This document shows, piece by piece, positions 2 to 22,188 of a stretch of DNA of 25,652 nucleotides. How positions within the stretch are numbered: position 1 is the first letter of the stretch; every line of letters starts with the position of its first letter. This stretch comes from a virus. The position numbers were made by a program, and so were the translations under genes. Location of the stretch: positions 1-25,652 of the IMG/VR virus record IMGVR_UViG_3300020442_001512. One strand, 5' to 3'. The notes under the pieces were generated by a model. The model searched no databases, had not been told where the DNA came from, and saw only the letters and a list, made by a program, of their open reading frames with translations.

Positions 2-1999
2 ACAATAGTGTTATTAGCGGCTCTCAGAGTTGCCGATCCTACACCATTGCAAAGTCTTCGAATGCAGACATTCGATTACTTACAACAATTAGACGAAGTT
101 AAACAAAGCAACGAAGTTGTCATAATAAACATTGGCGAAAAAAGCCTACAAAAATGGGGACAATATCCATGGCCAAGACAGAATTTTGCACAGATGATAC
201 ACGATTTACGCCAAGCGAATGGGGGCATTATAGGGCTGAATATTATGTTTCCGGAACAGGACAGGTTTGGCGGAGACGAGATTTTATCGAGTTGGATAAA
301 AGAGAACGGAGTCGTTTTAAGCCAGACGCCAAGTTTCAAAGGAATAAGGAGTTCAGGTCCTCACATTGGCACCGCAACGATTGGACCTTTGAGCCCGACC
401 CAAAGTTTACTAAAATGGCCCAATCTCGTTTCAAACGTAGAAACCTTAGAAAAGCCAGCAGAAGGAATAGGAGTAATAGCATCAGCACCACAGCCTGATA
501 ATCAAACTAGAACATACCCACTTGCAATAACTGTAGCAGACAAAATATATCCTAGTTTTGCAATAGAGATGTTGCGAGTGTATACGCAAAAACCAAGTTA
601 CATGTTAAAGACTAGTGAATTGGGTGTGCAGGAGTTTGCTGTTCCTCCTTTTGATCCTATAGTTACAAATCCAGACGGCACAGCATATATACGGTTTAAT
701 AATACGTTTGAAGAATACGAATATACAGATGCGAGTGAACTTCCTAACCTGGCAGGTAAATTCGTTATAGTAGGAGTGAGTGCTGAAGGTGTTGCTAATC
801 CTGTTCCAACGCCTAGAGGTAACTTGTATCCACAGCAAATACAGGGCCATATGCTACAAAATTTTATAGATGGCTCAAATATACAGCGAAATGAATTAAG
901 TGCTTTATATGAGCTCTTAGGAGCATTGTTGGGCATGATTTTAATAGCATTGGCAATTTACAAGTTACCTATATGGGCAGGATTAGTAACTACAGTTACT
1001 ATTTTGGGCGGAATTGTATATTATAGTGTACATTCTTATACTGCAAACTTGATGTTATTTGATGCAACTTTTCCAGTGTTAGCCAGTTTCTTGATTTTTA
1101 CACAGGCAAGTTTCAATAATTTTTGGATACAATTTAAATTACGAGAGCAAATTAAAAAGCAATTTGAACATTATCTTGCACCTGCAATGGTTAAAAAATT
1201 ACAAAAGAATCCAGAACTGTTACAGTTAGGCGGCGAAACAAAAACAATGACTTACTTATTTTCGGATATACGTGGCTTTACACCTATATCAGAACAATTT
1301 AAATCAGATCCACAAGGCTTAGGAAAACTCATAAACAAATATATGACACCTATGACGGATCTTGTAATGGAAAATGAAGGTACTATAGATAAGTATATCG
1401 GTGATGCGTTAATGGCAATTTGGGGTGCTCCTATAGACACAGAAGACCATGCTCAAAGAGCCGTTGAAACAGCACAGGCAATGGAGCCAGCATTAGAACA
1501 ATTAAATAAAGGATTACGAAATGAAGGACTTATTGAACTTAATATTGGAATCGGCATCAACACAGGCGATGCCGTTGTTGGAAACATGGGATCAGACCAA
1601 AGATTCGACTATACGGTATTGGGCGATTCCGTTAATTTGGCGGCACGGTTAGAAGCACAAACTAAAGAGTATGGAGTATTCTTTATGTTTACAGAACACA
1701 CCTTAGTGCAACTGTCAAAAATAAATGGGTACAGAGTATTATTAGACAAAATTGCAGTTAAAGGACAATCACAACCTGTAAAAATATACACTATATTACA
1801 GGATCATAAATATGGCAGAACAGTTGAACGCATGGTTGATGCTTATCAGGACAGAGAATGGAGTACATGTGCTCATCAGATAGATGTTATGAGACAACAT
1901 AAATGGAATGACACATTAGCAGACTTGTATGCTGAACGTATTAAAAGACCTATGCCTCAAGGCGAATGGGACGGTGTTGATAGAAAAACTTCTAAATAA
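2..1999 (+). CDS. CHASE2-domain class III adenylate/guanylate cyclase, 5' truncated
   Basis: This is a membrane-bound receptor-type nucleotidyl cyclase that would make cAMP (or cGMP) in the cytoplasm in response to an extracytoplasmic signal. Numbering from the GTG at base 8, residues 1-290 resemble a CHASE2 sensor, with the typical ADP..LQ..R...FD opening. About residues 298-375 hold two to three hydrophobic membrane segments, and the cyclase domain follows from about 405. The catalytic set looks complete: metal-binding D420 (SDIRGF) and D466 (GDALMAIW), a Lys in DKYIGDA favouring adenine, and N543 and R547 in the SVNLAARLE motif. The frame is open to the left edge and base 8 falls inside what looks like the end of a first membrane helix, so the true start is upstream. 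The gene ends directly against a convergent phage gene. The family call is secure; ligand and product are not known. Confidence 0.9.
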   Translation, partial: TIVLLAALRVADPTPLQSLRMQTFDYLQQLDEVKQSNEVVIINIGEKSLQKWGQYPWPRQNFAQMIHDLRQANGGIIGLNIMFPEQDRFGGDEILSSWIKENGVVLSQTPSFKGIRSSGPHIGTATIGPLSPTQSLLKWPNLVSNVETLEKPAEGIGVIASAPQPDNQTRTYPLAITVADKIYPSFAIEMLRVYTQKPSYMLKTSELGVQEFAVPPFDPIVTNPDGTAYIRFNNTFEEYEYTDASELPNLAGKFVIVGVSAEGVANPVPTPRGNLYPQQIQGHMLQNFIDGSNIQRNELSALYELLGALLGMILIALAIYKLPIWAGLVTTVTILGGIVYYSVHSYTANLMLFDATFPVLASFLIFTQASFNNFWIQFKLREQIKKQFEHYLAPAMVKKLQKNPELLQLGGETKTMTYLFSDIRGFTPISEQFKSDPQGLGKLINKYMTPMTDLVMENEGTIDKYIGDALMAIWGAPIDTEDHAQRAVETAQAMEPALEQLNKGLRNEGLIELNIGIGINTGDAVVGNMGSDQRFDYTVLGDSVNLAARLEAQTKEYGVFFMFTEHTLVQLSKINGYRVLLDKIAVKGQSQPVKIYTILQDHKYGRTVERMVDAYQDREWSTCAHQIDVMRQHKWNDTLADLYAERIKRPMPQGEWDGVDRKTSK

Positions 2000-2631: not shown

Positions 2632-3186
2632 TTATTTAGAATTTATATTAAGGATAGTATGTAGTTTACTTGTGCCTTTATTTCTACCAAGTGTACTTTT
2701 TGCACCATCGTGTAATGGCTTAGGCCATTGACCAATGCTCACCCATGCATACCCGGCACTTTCATCATTGAGTGTTGGAATGAATTCTTTATCTGTGACA
2801 TACACAAAACTATAATACATAAAATTTTTATCATTACTTTGATAAACATCGATAGGATTTAATTTTGTTAATTCAGGAATGATTCCTATTTCTTCTGAAA
2901 GTTCTCGACGAATACATTCATATGGAGTTTCTCCTTGTTCCATCATTCCTCCCCAAAACCCCCAAGAATTTTTATGTCTTTTATCGCTGTTTCTTAATTG
3001 GAATAAACACCTGCCTGTGTCTTTAGATAAAAATAAAACTCCAGCGGCACTAACACCTTTGTGTTTTCGAACATTTGTTAAAGGATTTAAAGTTTCGAGA
3101 ATACTTTTTTGTTCTACACGTTCAGACGCCAGAAGCCCGGGTTGTACTTGCCTTCGTAAGTGCTTGTCCATTGTTGTTTTTCCCAT
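2632..3186 (-). CDS. Nudix hydrolase
   Basis: This is a Nudix-fold pyrophosphohydrolase acting on a nucleoside diphosphate linked to another group (a nucleotide, sugar or RNA cap). The Nudix box is complete: G80, E86, R94-E95, E98-E99 and G101 in the G-x5-E-x7-RE-x2-EE-x-G arrangement, with the metal-binding glutamates intact. The adjacent GFWGG matches the usual pre-box strand. An N-terminal extension of about 45 residues precedes the fold. With the ATG at 3186 the gene overlaps the 3' end of gp15 by 73 nt in another frame; a second in-frame ATG at 3171 also lies inside gp15. No good ribosome binding site is visible, so translation may be coupled to gp15. Substrate cannot be told from sequence; phage Nudix enzymes include dNTP, ADP-ribose/NAD and RNA-cap types. 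Confidence 0.9.
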   Translation of the reverse strand: MGKTTMDKHLRRQVQPGLLASERVEQKSILETLNPLTNVRKHKGVSAAGVLFLSKDTGRCLFQLRNSDKRHKNSWGFWGGMMEQGETPYECIRRELSEEIGIIPELTKLNPIDVYQSNDKNFMYYSFVYVTDKEFIPTLNDESAGYAWVSIGQWPKPLHDGAKSTLGRNKGTSKLHTILNINSK

Positions 3187-4541
3187 TTAAATTGTTTGTT
3201 TGTGTATAAATTTTTAACATACTGAACACTATCTTGATTTACAGTTGTAGAAGAATCAAACGATACTACCCATCCAGTTCCATTGTATTCAATGATGTCA
3301 TCTGCTTCTGCATTAATACCCCATTGATTACCTCTTATTTCTGACGTAAGTAAATATCTTTGCCCAGTCGCCGCGGCATCTAATATACCGTCACCTGGAT
3401 AATTTGTAGAACCATCTACTATTCTTGTTATATCATTTAATGTTTCTGTAGGCAATGTATCAGAATCTAAATTAAAAATTAATTTACCAGAGTCTAATAC
3501 ATTTCTTGAAACTGTGCCTGACAGTAAACTTGTAGTGTTATCAACATCATTAGAAATATTTAATTGTAATGAACTACCAGTTGTAAGCGGAATATCATCT
3601 ATGCTTATAGACGAATTGCTTAATGTACCGCCACTGCCTTGTGGTGCAAGAACTTCTAATAAATCATTCCAGTTTGCTTTGACTGTACCATTATCTTTAT
3701 AAAGTGTTGCTTCAGTGCCCACAACTTCTACTTGATAGTTGTTAGGTGAAATAGTGTGTAATTCAAAATCAGCATCTAATGTTCTAAAGAAATCATATAC
3801 GTCTTCGTCATAACCTAAATTTGCTACACTATTGGTATCGTATATATTTGTAATGATTGTGTTAATAATTTTTTGTCGTTTAACTTTTGCTGGAGGACTT
3901 ACCCATATAGGCAATAAGAATGTTAATGTTGCAACGTCAATAGTTTCATCTACTCCTGCAGGAACACTTCTATTACTCCATTGTATATCTGTTAATTCTA
4001 CTTCGTATAAACTTGTCCAATCTAGTGGATTGTTATTTTGTTGAAGTTGAATAGCAGGGTTAAACAATATTAAAACTTGTTCTAATAACTGTAATTTTTG
4101 GTCAGTATTACCTGTCCATATATCAACATTCATTGTTAAATTATATGGAACAGGCATGTATCTGTCTGTAGTGTATAAATTTCCTGGGAAGGACTGAGCA
4201 TCTGCATCAGTTTTGTATTGGTTGGTACTGCTATCAAATTGTCTTTCTGCTACTTGAACTTTACCAACTAGCATAGGATCTTGAGTTCTATCTCTAGCAA
4301 TTAACAAACTTTGTATACTGCAAGATATAAATGGTGTGCTGTTTACTAAATTTTCACTGCCTTTAGTAAGAATATGAGCAACCATTCTTTGCATATCAGC
4401 ATATCTAACTGGTACTTTATTGTAGTATGTAGACCCATCTCTTACACCTTCGCTTACTTTAAATCCGCTAAAGATTCTCATAAACTGAAGCAAATATCGT
4501 CTAAGTTGTGCATCATACCAGTAATCTAAATTCTGACTCAT
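3114..4541 (-). CDS. 15: Tail completion and sheath stabilizer protein gp15
   Basis: This is the T4 gp15 homologue, the terminator ring at the head-proximal end of the tail that stabilises the sheath and joins tail to neck. The first 60 residues match the T4 pattern: an aromatic pair, then RRY, a hydrophobic helix with FSGF, then (V)P(V/I).YA. A long beta-rich core follows with VDIWTGN...Q.LEQ.L..F and a conserved (I)WVSPPA near residue 215. At 475 aa it is much longer than T4 gp15 (272 aa). The extra C-terminal part, about residues 375-430, carries a G-x-Y-x-L...YNGTGWV module also seen in gp14 and the sheath, and the protein ends in NPGFWRLNV. It starts 1 nt after the gp14 stop, so the two are one operon, on the strand opposite to most other structural genes here. 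Confidence 0.85.
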   Translation of the reverse strand: MSQNLDYWYDAQLRRYLLQFMRIFSGFKVSEGVRDGSTYYNKVPVRYADMQRMVAHILTKGSENLVNSTPFISCSIQSLLIARDRTQDPMLVGKVQVAERQFDSSTNQYKTDADAQSFPGNLYTTDRYMPVPYNLTMNVDIWTGNTDQKLQLLEQVLILFNPAIQLQQNNNPLDWTSLYEVELTDIQWSNRSVPAGVDETIDVATLTFLLPIWVSPPAKVKRQKIINTIITNIYDTNSVANLGYDEDVYDFFRTLDADFELHTISPNNYQVEVVGTEATLYKDNGTVKANWNDLLEVLAPQGSGGTLSNSSISIDDIPLTTGSSLQLNISNDVDNTTSLLSGTVSRNVLDSGKLIFNLDSDTLPTETLNDITRIVDGSTNYPGDGILDAAATGQRYLLTSEIRGNQWGINAEADDIIEYNGTGWVVSFDSSTTVNQDSVQYVKNLYTNKQFKWEKQQWTSTYEGKYNPGFWRLNV

Positions 4542-5637: not shown

Positions 5638-5727
<90 letters not shown>

Positions 5728-5735
5728 GATAAATA
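5728..5735 (+). promoter_or_regulatory. Late-type motif between the two tRNAs
   Basis: GATAAATA lies in the 13-nt spacer between tRNA-Ser and tRNA-Ala. If the start site is 6 nt beyond the motif, as at T4 late promoters, transcription would begin at base 5741, the first base of the mature tRNA-Ala. Chance occurrence in AT-rich DNA is possible. Confidence 0.4.
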
Positions 5736-5740
5736 ATTAC

Positions 5741-5816
5741 GGGGCCGTAGCTCAGTTGGGAGAGCGTCTGGTTTGCATCCAGAAGGTCGCAGGTTCGACC
5801 CCTGTCGGCTCCACCA
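5741..5816 (+). tRNA. tRNA-Ala (UGC)
   Basis: This is a 76-nt cloverleaf with acceptor GGGGCCG/CGGCTCC including the G3:U70 wobble that marks tRNA-Ala for alanyl-tRNA synthetase, discriminator A and encoded CCA at 5814-5816. The anticodon stem TCTGG/CCAGA encloses TTTGCAT, giving anticodon TGC at 5774-5776. D and T arms are normal. It reads GCA and GCG and probably GCT. It sits 13 nt after tRNA-Ser. Confidence 0.97.
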
Positions 5817-6887: not shown

Positions 6888-7604
6888 ATGTATAAAGAAA
6901 AAGTAACTTGGGTCCATCATTGGACTGATAAAACATTTAGTTTCAAAACCACACGCAACCAAAGTTTTAGATTTGTAAATGGAGAGTTTGCAATGATAGG
7001 TTTAATTGTAGATGACAAGCCTTTGTTAAGAGCATACAGTATTGCAAGTGCAAATTATGAAGACCATTTAGAGTTCCTCAGTATAAAGGTGCCCGACGGA
7101 CCTCTTACAAGTCGTCTACAGCATTTAAAAGTTGGAGACGAAGTTGTAGTAATGCCTAAGTGTACAGGCACTTTAACGATTGATAATTTAACAAAAGCAA
7201 AAAATTTGTTTTTACTTTCAACAGGAACAGGTATTGCTCCATTTATGAGTATTATTCGAGACCCTGCAACATACGACAAGTTTGAAAACGTAATTTTAGT
7301 GCATACAACTAGAACACATGCAGAGCATACTTACACAGATACAATAAATCGTATGTGTGAAAGTTTTCCTTTAACTTATTATGACACATGTACACAAGAA
7401 GATTATAAACGCAAAGGCAGGTTTTGGAATCACATAAATAGTTTTACTGAAAACGGATTTAATAAAGACACGGATCGTATAATGGTATGCGGTGGTCCTG
7501 ATATGAATTATGAATGCCGAGATTATTTTGAAAATTTAGGATTCATAGAAGGCAATTTAGGAGAGCCTAATGATTTTGTGTTAGAACGAGCATTTGTAGA
7601 TTGA
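6888..7604 (+). CDS. fpr: Ferredoxin/flavodoxin-NADP+ reductase
   Basis: This FAD enzyme exchanges electrons between NADPH and ferredoxin or flavodoxin in the cytoplasm. The FAD site is R48-A-Y-S51 followed by a GPLTSRL pyrophosphate-binding loop at 71-77. The NADP site is STGTGIAPFMS at 111-121 and VCGGPDM at 200-206. The C-terminus ERAFVD fits the bacterial Pseudomonas/Rhodobacter type, whose tail covers the flavin, rather than the plant type. At 238 aa it is slightly shorter than the usual ~255, but no domain is missing. The gene overlaps the radical SAM gene by 4 nt. An Fpr-flavodoxin or ferredoxin chain is the normal reductant for radical SAM clusters, so it may power the next enzyme. 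No ferredoxin or flavodoxin gene is present in this window. Confidence 0.92.
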   Translation: MYKEKVTWVHHWTDKTFSFKTTRNQSFRFVNGEFAMIGLIVDDKPLLRAYSIASANYEDHLEFLSIKVPDGPLTSRLQHLKVGDEVVVMPKCTGTLTIDNLTKAKNLFLLSTGTGIAPFMSIIRDPATYDKFENVILVHTTRTHAEHTYTDTINRMCESFPLTYYDTCTQEDYKRKGRFWNHINSFTENGFNKDTDRIMVCGGPDMNYECRDYFENLGFIEGNLGEPNDFVLERAFVD

Positions 7605-9367
7605 GTATTAACGTATTAGATATAAAGCAAGATTATAAAAAGACACCAGTTGAGGTTCTTTTGTTTGCTGACGATTTAATTCCAAAGCACCATTGGGAAA
7701 TATCTCTTACACATGAACATTTTGCAAACGTTGGCTTCAAACAAATTGAAAAAAGTGAAGTAGAAGACTACTTTAAAAACATGCTAAAACGTTTCCCCCC
7801 TGAAAATAGACTACACAGGTATTTAGATGATACAGCATATTATGTAAATCATAAAACTGCCAGACCATATGGAGTTTATAAAATTGCCCATGAAATTAGA
7901 AAGGCTGGATACACAGTTCAAGTTGTTGCTCATCCGCATTTCTTAACAGAAGAAGACGTTGAACTTATTATAGATAAGTTTGTAGGCGAAGAAACACTAG
8001 TAGTAGGTTCTTCGGGAACATTTCACAGTGGTTATAATCCTTATGCTTTTATAGATTCTATGTTTTTTCCAGTTGCAAGACAAAGACAAATTAGAAAAAT
8101 GATAGACAAACGTAATCCGAATACTAAAATGATTTACGGAGGATCATCAATAGGTGAAGACTATCTCCGAGATCCTAATTATGATAGTCCTATGTTAGAT
8201 GTTGATACATTGTTTGTTGGTTATGGTGATGTAACTATGATAGAATATTTAAATGACCTAAAGGAAGGACAGCAATGGCCCACTTATACAGATAGAGGCA
8301 GTAGATTAGATATTCAAAACAGCACAATGAGTTATACAGACGAGGATTGTGTTCAATGGGGAGACCAATTAGGATTAGAAACAGCCAGAGGTTGTATTTT
8401 TAAATGTGCTTTTTGTAATTTTGGATTAATAGGAAAAGAAAAAGGCACATATGAAAGAGGTACCAATTTAATTGTAGATGAATTAAGACGTAATTGGGAA
8501 GAACACGGTGTTTTTAGATACTGGGTAATGGACGATACGTTCAATGACACAAATTACAAGTTAGAAGCAGTAGCAGAAGCAAAAGAAAAGAGTGGTGTTC
8601 CTTTAGACCTTACAGTATTTCTAAGATTAGACCTACAACACCGACTTAACCAAACAGAATTGGTAAAATCTTGTGGAATAAAATCTATTTACTATGGAAT
8701 AGAAACATTAAATCCTGATAGTGCTATAGATATTGGTAAAGGTTGGCATCCTGATGAGCAAATGGCATTTATAAGAGAACTAAAAGAGAAACATTACCAT
8801 GATAATATCAAAACATTCACAACTTTTATATGGGGTTTGCCATCTGATTCAAAACAAAGTGTTATGGAAGACTATGATAAGTTATTAGACTTCGAATATA
8901 ATAAATTTGACCATGTTTATATGAATGCTTTAATGATGAGAGACCCAGAATCATATAAATTACAAACATTAGAAACAGATGCACCCACAGGAAGTGCAAT
9001 AGACACAGATCCTGGCAAGTATGGTTACACTTTTGGTGGTTTTGATGCGGCCCGAGCCGCAGATCCAGGCGTAAATGTATTAAGAGCATGGAGAAACAAG
9101 CATGGATTACGTTATGGTACTGTGAATAAACTGGCAGACAAGTTTAACAGAGAATATAATCGTAAAAAAGGTTGGCAAGAAGACTATAGTGCTTCTCCAC
9201 CACACAGAATATATGAAGATGCAATACCAAATGATAATTTTGACAAATACCTTCAAAAATATTGGGACGATGTGATGTCTGTACAAGGACATACCAGGTA
9301 TGACTCAGCAGAATTTTTTGATTCCAATACTCAATCATCTATAAAATTGAAAGCGATAACTAATTAG
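7601..9367 (+). CDS. Radical SAM enzyme, B12-binding-like N-terminal domain
   Basis: This radical S-adenosylmethionine enzyme carries the [4Fe-4S]-binding motif CX3CX2C at C265, C269 and C272 (RGCIFKCAFC). A TIM-barrel follows, with YWVMDDTFN, DLTVFLRLD and the YYGIETL strand typical of B12-binding radical SAM proteins. Residues about 85-235 look like the Rossmann-type domain seen in that subgroup (PYGVYKIAHEIRKAGY, then IYGGSSIGED), but the DxHxxG cobalamin motif is not seen. The start is TTG at 7601, overlapping the reductase stop as TTGA; the first in-frame ATG is some 60 residues inside the conserved region. It lies between Fpr and the FabZ-like gene with almost no spacing. The reaction cannot be predicted; methyl transfer or radical modification of a lipid or peptide are options. 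Confidence 0.9.
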   Translation: MSINVLDIKQDYKKTPVEVLLFADDLIPKHHWEISLTHEHFANVGFKQIEKSEVEDYFKNMLKRFPPENRLHRYLDDTAYYVNHKTARPYGVYKIAHEIRKAGYTVQVVAHPHFLTEEDVELIIDKFVGEETLVVGSSGTFHSGYNPYAFIDSMFFPVARQRQIRKMIDKRNPNTKMIYGGSSIGEDYLRDPNYDSPMLDVDTLFVGYGDVTMIEYLNDLKEGQQWPTYTDRGSRLDIQNSTMSYTDEDCVQWGDQLGLETARGCIFKCAFCNFGLIGKEKGTYERGTNLIVDELRRNWEEHGVFRYWVMDDTFNDTNYKLEAVAEAKEKSGVPLDLTVFLRLDLQHRLNQTELVKSCGIKSIYYGIETLNPDSAIDIGKGWHPDEQMAFIRELKEKHYHDNIKTFTTFIWGLPSDSKQSVMEDYDKLLDFEYNKFDHVYMNALMMRDPESYKLQTLETDAPTGSAIDTDPGKYGYTFGGFDAARAADPGVNVLRAWRNKHGLRYGTVNKLADKFNREYNRKKGWQEDYSASPPHRIYEDAIPNDNFDKYLQKYWDDVMSVQGHTRYDSAEFFDSNTQSSIKLKAITN

Positions 9368-21114: not shown

Positions 21115-22188
21115 ATGAAAATAAAATATACAAAAACTCCAAGGAACGTAATCGAGTTTGACGAAGATGTTCCGGCTGATTTAGATCCTACAGACGTTGT
21201 AGAGATTTTTCAAACACCTTTGACTGGTTCATTTAATTGGGACTACACAGTTCAAGACAATAGAATTAAAAAGTTATATGAATTAGGCAAACAATTAAAT
21301 TGGAATGTAGAAGTTGATGTTGATTGGACTCCAAAGTTTACAGGAATTGGAGACGAAGAGTTTGAATTTGAGAATACTCAGTGGGATAACCATACAACAT
21401 TTAAAACATTTGATAAACAAACACGTTTAGAGTTCTTTAAAGACTTAAACAGTTGGGCAACAAGTCAATTTTTACATGGAGAACAAGGAGCATTATTGGT
21501 AGCATCGCAATTAGCCAGTTGTGCGCCGACCTATAACGCAAAACTTTACGCCGCCAGCCAAACATTCGACGAGGCAAGGCATGTAGAAGCATTTAACAAG
21601 TATTTGCAACAAAGATTAAAACGCAGTTGGCCCATTGGTCGAGCATTAAAAGGTCTACTGGACAAAATTTTAACAGATCCTAGATGGGATTTGAAGTTTA
21701 TTGGTATGCAAGTTGTAATTGAAGGCTTGGCACTTGCCGCCTTTAATGCCGCCAAAGAAGGCACTAATGATCCTGTGTACAAACAAATGTTAGAATACAT
21801 TATTAGAGACGAAGCAAGACATGTTACGTTTGGTATTAACTATCTTAAAGACTATGTTACAACATTAAGTGAAGAAGATGTTATGGACAGAGCACAATTT
21901 GCCTTAGAAGCCTGTACTGTAAGTAGGAATAGACTACGAGCATACGATGTATGGGAAAAATATGGCATGGATTTAGAATATACTGACGAATATCAAAAAG
22001 AAAACATATTCCAAACACAATTTCAAGATGTATTGTTTAGTAGAATAATGCCAAACCTTAAAAAGATTGGATTACTACATGATGACCTTGTGCCTGAGTA
22101 TGAAAAATTAGGTGTAATGGGTTATGCAGATGGTGACAGTGATTATGAAACAAGTTGGGAAGAGCTCAGTAAACCTTTGAAAGCATAA
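21115..22188 (+). CDS. Ferritin-like diiron protein (R2-like oxidase/oxygenase)
   Basis: This long-chain ferritin-like protein has a four-helix bundle and complete diiron ligands: E123 (LHGEQ), E153 and H156 (DEARH), E203 (VVIEGLA) and E233 and H236 (DEARH), the E-x30-ExxH / E-x~30-ExxH layout of ribonucleotide reductase R2 and diiron oxygenases. The LTDPRWDLKFIGMQV and RDEARHVTFG segments place it with bacterial ferritin-like oxidoreductases of unknown substrate, not with ferritin storage proteins. The tyrosyl-radical context of R2 is not evident. N-terminal residues 1-90 are an unrecognised extension. It lies among virion genes, between gp4 and gp16. Such enzymes need an electron donor; the phage Fpr at 6888 could supply it. 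N- or C-oxygenation or desaturation are possible reactions. Confidence 0.85.
   Translation: MKIKYTKTPRNVIEFDEDVPADLDPTDVVEIFQTPLTGSFNWDYTVQDNRIKKLYELGKQLNWNVEVDVDWTPKFTGIGDEEFEFENTQWDNHTTFKTFDKQTRLEFFKDLNSWATSQFLHGEQGALLVASQLASCAPTYNAKLYAASQTFDEARHVEAFNKYLQQRLKRSWPIGRALKGLLDKILTDPRWDLKFIGMQVVIEGLALAAFNAAKEGTNDPVYKQMLEYIIRDEARHVTFGINYLKDYVTTLSEEDVMDRAQFALEACTVSRNRLRAYDVWEKYGMDLEYTDEYQKENIFQTQFQDVLFSRIMPNLKKIGLLHDDLVPEYEKLGVMGYADGDSDYETSWEELSKPLKA

Follow-up and report, generated by a model that had tools for sequence, protein, structure and literature searches.

What purpose could a bacteriophage have for a membrane receptor that synthesizes a cyclic nucleotide? The question is raised by the first open reading frame of a 25,652-base IMG/VR record, the whole of which was analysed here and is referred to as the window. 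An initial, sequence-only reading of this DNA had recognized a CHASE2 receptor cyclase, had taken such genes as not known from T4-like phages, and had stated that most cyclic-nucleotide proteins of phages degrade signals and do not make them. Pelagibacter phage HTVC008M and also Methylophilales phage Melnitz, however, both have such a cyclase in their annotation, our search found the gene in hundreds of IMG/VR contigs, and a phage type VIII (curli) secretion cassette that includes FecR and an adenylate cyclase was already described in 2022 in the available part of PMC9599517. The gene and its cassette are already known, and the claim of novelty for a phage cyclase fails. In that same available text the cassette order is csgF-csgG-curlin-FecR-curlin-cyclase, with the cyclase last, an alphaproteobacterial origin is proposed for the phage cassette, and the entire cassette is held to have been transferred between phage families. 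Sibling capture and lysis timing have been proposed as its roles in the accessible portions of PMC7029224 and PMC9004378, and the accessible portion of the latter records no clumping in Melnitz cultures. The available portions of these three papers contain no mention of CHASE2 or of domain exchange, that of PMC9599517 no mention of catalytic types, and our search for literature on the function of any phage adenylate cyclase returned nothing.

Here, we add to this picture an exchange of sensor and catalytic modules, a catalytic type so far known from phages only, a jumbo-phage setting, and a full cassette in a bacterium, none of which we found described in the available literature. Phage curli/FecR/cyclase cassettes are widespread in the ocean, and these additions make their role testable.

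Architecture and catalytic residues of the cyclase

The cyclase open reading frame occupies positions 2-1999 on the plus strand; its 5' end is open, and 665 residues are followed by a stop codon. Full-length relatives begin MKWLYSGWAVAI, which places approximately 12 N-terminal residues beyond the left edge of the window. This CHASE2-TM-class III nucleotidyl cyclase is the last gene of a phage curli/FecR cassette, and the same gene is present at 74 IMG/VR loci. A periplasmic CHASE2 domain (Pfam PF05226, 1.4e-38, residues 3-311), assigned by clustering to the alpha sensor type, spans 8-934 (+), and three transmembrane helices follow at 902-1099 (+), placed by hydropathy at residues 301-319, 322-340 and 348-366 and by an AlphaFold2 model (mean pLDDT 80.8) at 300-321, 324-349 and 356-388. 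The receptor has four membrane helices, the first of which is clipped by the window edge and is whole in relatives, giving the layout of a CHASE2 receptor in which a transmembrane helix precedes the periplasmic CHASE2 domain and three more lead to the cytoplasmic cyclase.

The class III catalytic domain lies at 1238-1795 (+; Pfam PF00211, Guanylate_cyc, 7.2e-21, residues 413-598) and was aligned with CyaC, Cya2 and other PDB entries. Its catalytic motif, DKDTNR, comprises D422 (1265-1267), K464 (1391-1393), D468 (1403-1405), T538 (1613-1615), N545 (1634-1636) and R549 (1646-1648), all on the plus strand and numbered with the first codon of the window as 1; the D420, D466, N543 and R547 originally named are D422, D468, N545 and R549, having been counted from a GTG at base 8. 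The modelled domain superimposes on the class III cyclases CyaC, Cya2 and CyaB (1wc1, 2w01 and 3r5g) with TM scores, by target length, of about 0.8-0.86. The window cyclase has the two metal-binding Asp residues, the substrate Lys, the Asn, the Arg and the fold of class III enzymes, and T538, at the second substrate position, aligns with the Thr that CyaC carries in place of Asp, as in class IIIb. A Thr at this position is a class IIIb signature that is tied to the bicarbonate response in CyaC-type enzymes. Pfam, hydropathy and alignment thus agree that the gene encodes what was first perceived, a CHASE2 receptor cyclase with transmembrane segments and complete class III residues.

Phage cyclases cluster into three catalytic types distinguished at the substrate position just described and at the transition-state Asn: type A, that of the window, has Thr or Ser with Asn, type B (HTVC008M) has Ser with Asn, and type C (Melnitz) has Asp with Ser. 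The equivalent of T538 is Ser in many bacteria, as in type B. The helical tail that ends the window protein (1805-1996, +; model helices 602-648; ..EWDGVDRKTSK) has a form that, in the alignment, is common to type C and the bacterial relatives, while type B is without it. Because every one of the 234 distinct full-length phage cyclases has Lys at the substrate position equivalent to K464, which Glu occupies in the guanylyl cyclase Cya2 (2w01), cAMP is the expected product, and the window cyclase most likely converts ATP to cAMP.

The gene resides in a relative of jumbo phages

As originally perceived, the cyclase adjoins phage genes. It is met by a conserved convergent neighbour of 207 aa (2000-2623, -), which accompanies the cyclase in 40 alpha-sensor loci and forms the right boundary of the exchanged segment described below. 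Beyond it are a Nudix hydrolase (2632-3186, -; Pfam NUDIX 1.1e-19), a conserved neighbour outside the cassette, and a backbone gene encoding a gp15-type tail sheath stabiliser (3114-4541, -; Pfam T4-gp15_tss 8.6e-29), with sheath, tube, head-closure and terminase genes elsewhere in the window. The Nudix gene shares 73 bases with the gp15-type gene at the 3' end of the latter, an overlap kept in relatives. The window also contains a tRNA-Ser(GCT) and tRNA-Ala(TGC) pair (5638-5816) where the left and right gene blocks switch strand, a FAD/NAD-binding oxidoreductase followed by a radical SAM protein (6888-9367), an unusual pair within a phage structural region, and, between the head-closure and terminase genes, a weak match to AurF/ferritin-like (diiron oxygenase-like) proteins (21115-22188).

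T4-like phages of the Kyanoviridae/Straboviridae kind combine T4-type structural genes with genomes of about 130-250 kb. The gp15-type gene and a T4-type terminase uphold one part of the earlier description of this phage as T4-like, namely its T4-related backbone. The sheath points elsewhere: its closest named phages are the jumbo phages PA5oct, MIJ3 and Atu_ph07, and it is 71% identical to the sheath on a 339,794-bp contig that also bears a cyclase. Judged by these genes, the name 'jumbo relative of the T4 superfamily' would suit the window phage better than 'T4-like'.

The window opens inside a gene and the GC content of positions 1-1000 is slightly higher, two features that could indicate a bacterial fragment or an assembly join at the left edge. 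The nearest relative, L002 (87% identical), carries the 207-aa protein, Nudix, gp15 and a virion protein rightward in the order of the window, and its left flank is a phage curli/FecR cassette and not a bacterial chromosome; the leftward sequence, which the sequence-only reading had proposed to inspect, was in this way read in relatives, as were the N-terminal residues. Nor is the cyclase absent from related phages, since a search anchored on gp15 rather than on the cyclase found it +1073 to +1397 past gp15 in all 18 window-clade loci with enough sequence; of 25 loci with more distant gp15 genes and sufficient space, none had it. The isolates HTVC008M and Melnitz also possess the gene. Independent contigs, the gp15-anchored search and isolate genomes together rule out an assembly join or bacterial contamination, to which we accord practically no credence.

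The cyclase is linked to a curli/FecR cassette

The 234 phage cyclases came from a sample that was seeded with cyclases, so the linkage frequencies that follow leave uncounted any cassette without one. Of the 129 phage loci with enough DNA, 125 have a FecR gene upstream in the orientation of the cyclase, and 127 have one linked in either orientation; at two of the four exceptions, L178 and L180, the cassette adjoins the cyclase but is inverted. CsgG is encoded upstream in 112 of 116 phage loci with enough sequence. In L002 the CsgF, CsgG, curlin-repeat and FecR proteins are all Pfam-confirmed, and the closest relatives of the window carry the complete curli/type VIII secretion, FecR and cyclase set; the window itself ends inside the cyclase. 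In both HTVC008M and Melnitz the cyclase is likewise the last gene, behind csgF, csgG, curlin and FecR genes.

Several smaller features of these loci were recorded. The gene preceding csgF (L002:4257-4559, L061:5327-5653, L076:5549-5896) encodes a protein of about 100 aa that has a single membrane helix, matches phrog_18771 and, weakly, a holin family, and may be holin-like. A 'histidine kinase' at the start of the cassette, as named in the available part of PMC9599517, is not borne out in L002 and L061, where the protein is without a kinase domain in Pfam. A small predicted lipoprotein is encoded at L002:9494-9784, with the second curlin gene on one side and the cyclase on the other.

Sensor and catalytic domains are exchanged as modules

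Clustering of the phage cyclases yielded 13 sensor types as against only three catalytic types, and the two are combined freely. The alpha sensor occurs with type A in 15 cases, type B in 3 and type C in 24, and the beta sensor with A in 1, B in 72 and C in 39, so that all six combinations are present. Individual pairs display the same discordance in both directions: L004 and L019 are 91% identical in the sensor and 42% in the catalytic domain, whereas Melnitz and a jumbo relative, L033, are 34% identical in the sensor and 85% in the catalytic domain. Sliding identity, nucleotide identity and the structural model place the drop at residues 376-390 (1127-1171, +), where the last membrane/signalling helix ends. 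In the pair L005/L023, nucleotide identity is approximately 90% over most of the sensor, lower in the membrane part and approximately 50% in the catalytic part, and returns to 73-88% immediately after the stop codon, with flanks conserved on both sides; this is an in-place replacement of the catalytic part.

The sensor and catalytic trees conflict, with support, and the sensor tree requires no fewer than 13 switches, 8 of the 13 falling in the alpha group. HTVC008M and Melnitz, both cultured, show a sensor/catalytic switch, and the exchange is therefore not solely an effect of assembly. Within the alpha group, backbone identity correlates weakly with both sensor and catalytic identity (rho 0.11-0.28), and for this reason we do not assert that sensors follow the phage backbone in general; the case for in-place exchange consists of the specific pairs and the trees. 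From these comparisons, sensor and catalytic domain appear as exchangeable modules.

Constraint on the catalytic types and the distinctness of type C

The exchanged catalytic domains are not decaying. The two metal Asp residues, the Lys and the Arg are retained in 234 of 234 distinct full-length phage cyclases, and catalytic dN/dS within types is about 0.03-0.13; the catalytic types are under strong purifying selection, and a degenerate or dead cyclase is ruled out. Type C has Asp for Thr/Ser and Ser for the transition-state Asn in 73 of 73 members, and its motif is found at 113 phage loci and at none of 80 bacterial loci or in any of 398 Pseudomonadota genomes. A search of 385 Alphaproteobacteria and 398 Pseudomonadota genomes at a strict cut-off (E<1e-60) returned no close bacterial source. 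Type C thus appears, within the bacteria searched, to be known so far from phages only, and a wider search could change that.

The absence of Thr from type C would be one functional difference between the outputs. Type C might go further and, through its Asp and Ser substitutions, be a different enzyme that makes another product or serves as a near-silent regulated scaffold. The transition-state Asn is a catalytic residue in the class III mechanism, and its replacement in every type C member, in a motif matched by none of the bacteria searched, speaks for altered chemistry. The intact metal Asp residues, Lys and Arg, and a domain as highly conserved as that of an active enzyme (85% between Melnitz and jumbo relatives), speak for ordinary catalysis, and we consider a different enzyme unlikely.

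The exchange itself might be neutral phage mosaicism, in which recombination at a conserved helix end leaves cAMP production unchanged and the three types have no functional meaning. Phages are generally mosaic, 8 of the 13 switches fall in the alpha group, where the phages are closely related, and the cassette has been described as passing in its entirety from one phage family to another (PMC9599517, available part). A purely neutral process sits less well with the restriction to three strongly constrained catalytic types against 13 sensor types, with the retention of all catalytic residues save the fixed Asn-to-Ser change of type C, and with the uniformity of type C. On balance neutrality is somewhat doubtful to us, although it deserves serious weight. 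A bolder proposal, that a fixed envelope sensor is fitted with swappable outputs suited to hosts or rival phages and that type C is a phage-only lineage with altered chemistry or regulation, is speculative, and we regard it as improbable in this full form.

The FecR-CHASE2 cyclase pair in bacteria

The linkage to FecR extends beyond phages. Among 76 bacterial loci, mostly from Alphaproteobacteria, 33 have a FecR-domain reading frame directly upstream of a CHASE2 cyclase, and 15 more have one at another place in the locus. Of five bacterial FecR proteins scanned, two are RTX-type surface proteins, one of which also has cadherin-like repeats. In the marine Alphaproteobacteria L108, L129, L138, L142 and L145, the FecR gene is several kilobases from the CHASE2 cyclase and on the opposite strand. 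A contig of a Caulobacteraceae metagenome-assembled genome (L078:5959-12016) carries the order csgF-csgG-curlin-curlin-FecR-CHASE2 cyclase, flanked by glycosyltransferase and TonB-receptor genes, and this whole cassette qualifies the statement, in the available part of PMC9599517, that such regulators sit outside bacterial curli operons. In Campylobacterota, too, FecR and a phosphodiesterase are grouped with CHASE2 cyclases (PMC9239204), and in Burkholderia FecR adjoins a CHASE2 histidine kinase (PMC5192318). Judged by gene neighbourhoods, FecR and the CHASE2 cyclase appear to be an older bacterial pair.

Discussion

The reading that we favour, at a probability of roughly 55%, is that the window gene encodes a phage receptor cyclase coupled to a FecR/curli cassette, likely making cAMP, whose catalytic module has been exchanged among three types. 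The kept residues, the linkage to FecR, the old bacterial pairing and the catalytic exchange suggest a signalling device in working order, not a passenger gene. The receptor would act together with a phage-encoded CsgF/CsgG outer-membrane pore, curlin-repeat proteins and a periplasmic FecR. FecR, or the assembly state of curlin and CsgGF, would be read by the periplasmic CHASE2 domain, the signal would be carried by the four membrane helices, and the cytoplasmic class III domain, presumably a homodimer, would be released to make cAMP. The infected cell would in this manner receive a pulse of cAMP reflecting the state of its envelope. Phages would retain the sensor that fits the cassette and, presumably under selection, repeatedly swap the catalytic module where the last membrane helix ends.

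The FecR-to-CHASE2 step is one that we infer, and evidence bears on both sides of it. The conserved neighbourhood in phages and bacteria argues for a partnership, and in Sinorhizobium meliloti CyaD1 without CHASE2 produces cAMP constitutively (PMC5498481). In the same organism, activation of CyaD1/D2/K by the plant signal reportedly does not require smc02177, the FecR-domain gene beside cyaD1 (PMC5498481), which counts against a simple model of FecR as ligand there. The absence of clumping in Melnitz cultures (PMC9004378) also weighs against the favoured reading. Downstream of the cyclase, no cNMP-binding domain (PF00027) was found in 16 phage records, including the 339,794-bp contig and two isolate genomes; a phage-encoded cAMP receptor was rejected on this result. 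Because the phages examined encode no recognizable receptor, we propose that a putative host receptor acts on the cAMP, and a rise in host cAMP through the cyclase is plausible.

A cyclase in a phage might instead serve counter-defence, either in the manner of Pycsar, by making cCMP or cUMP, or by disturbing host nucleotide signalling. PADLOC models of PycC do give hits of up to 3e-30 in the catalytic domain, but these are confined to the general class III core, an effector gene of Pycsar such as PycTM or PycTIR was not identified beside the cyclase, and the receptor architecture is that of ordinary bacterial CHASE2 cyclases. Membership in Pycsar was rejected, the conserved neighbours being curli/FecR and phage structural genes, and a counter-defence role of this kind seems to us very unlikely.

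A coupled receptor cyclase in the window is best placed among known systems by what it shares with each. The pelagiphage cassette of HTVC008M (cyclase gp19) has the same gene order as the relatives of the window and a homologous CHASE2 cyclase, to which that of the window is 38% identical; the window and its relatives differ in being jumbo-type, and the end of the window contig cuts the cyclase off its cassette. In the Melnitz group of methylophages (MZ577097, gp104) the cyclase is likewise at the end of a curli cassette, with a sensor related to that of HTVC008M, but it is of type C (D..S) rather than type A and its sensor is only 35% identical to that of the window. CyaC of Spirulina (1WC0/1WC1), a bicarbonate-responsive class IIIb enzyme, shares with the window the catalytic fold and the Thr at T538 and differs in its sensor and membrane part. 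Finally, bacterial CHASE2 cyclases (the S. meliloti CyaD1 type and those of Campylobacterota, Bradyrhizobium and L078) have the domain order and the FecR neighbour of the phage genes, whereas their sensors are approximately 24-35% and their catalytic domains approximately 45-61% identical to those of the window, and none is of type C. Many of them have as their FecR neighbour a giant surface protein and not a component of a curli cassette, and L078 alone among the bacterial relatives named here has the full csg-FecR-cyclase set that the phages carry.
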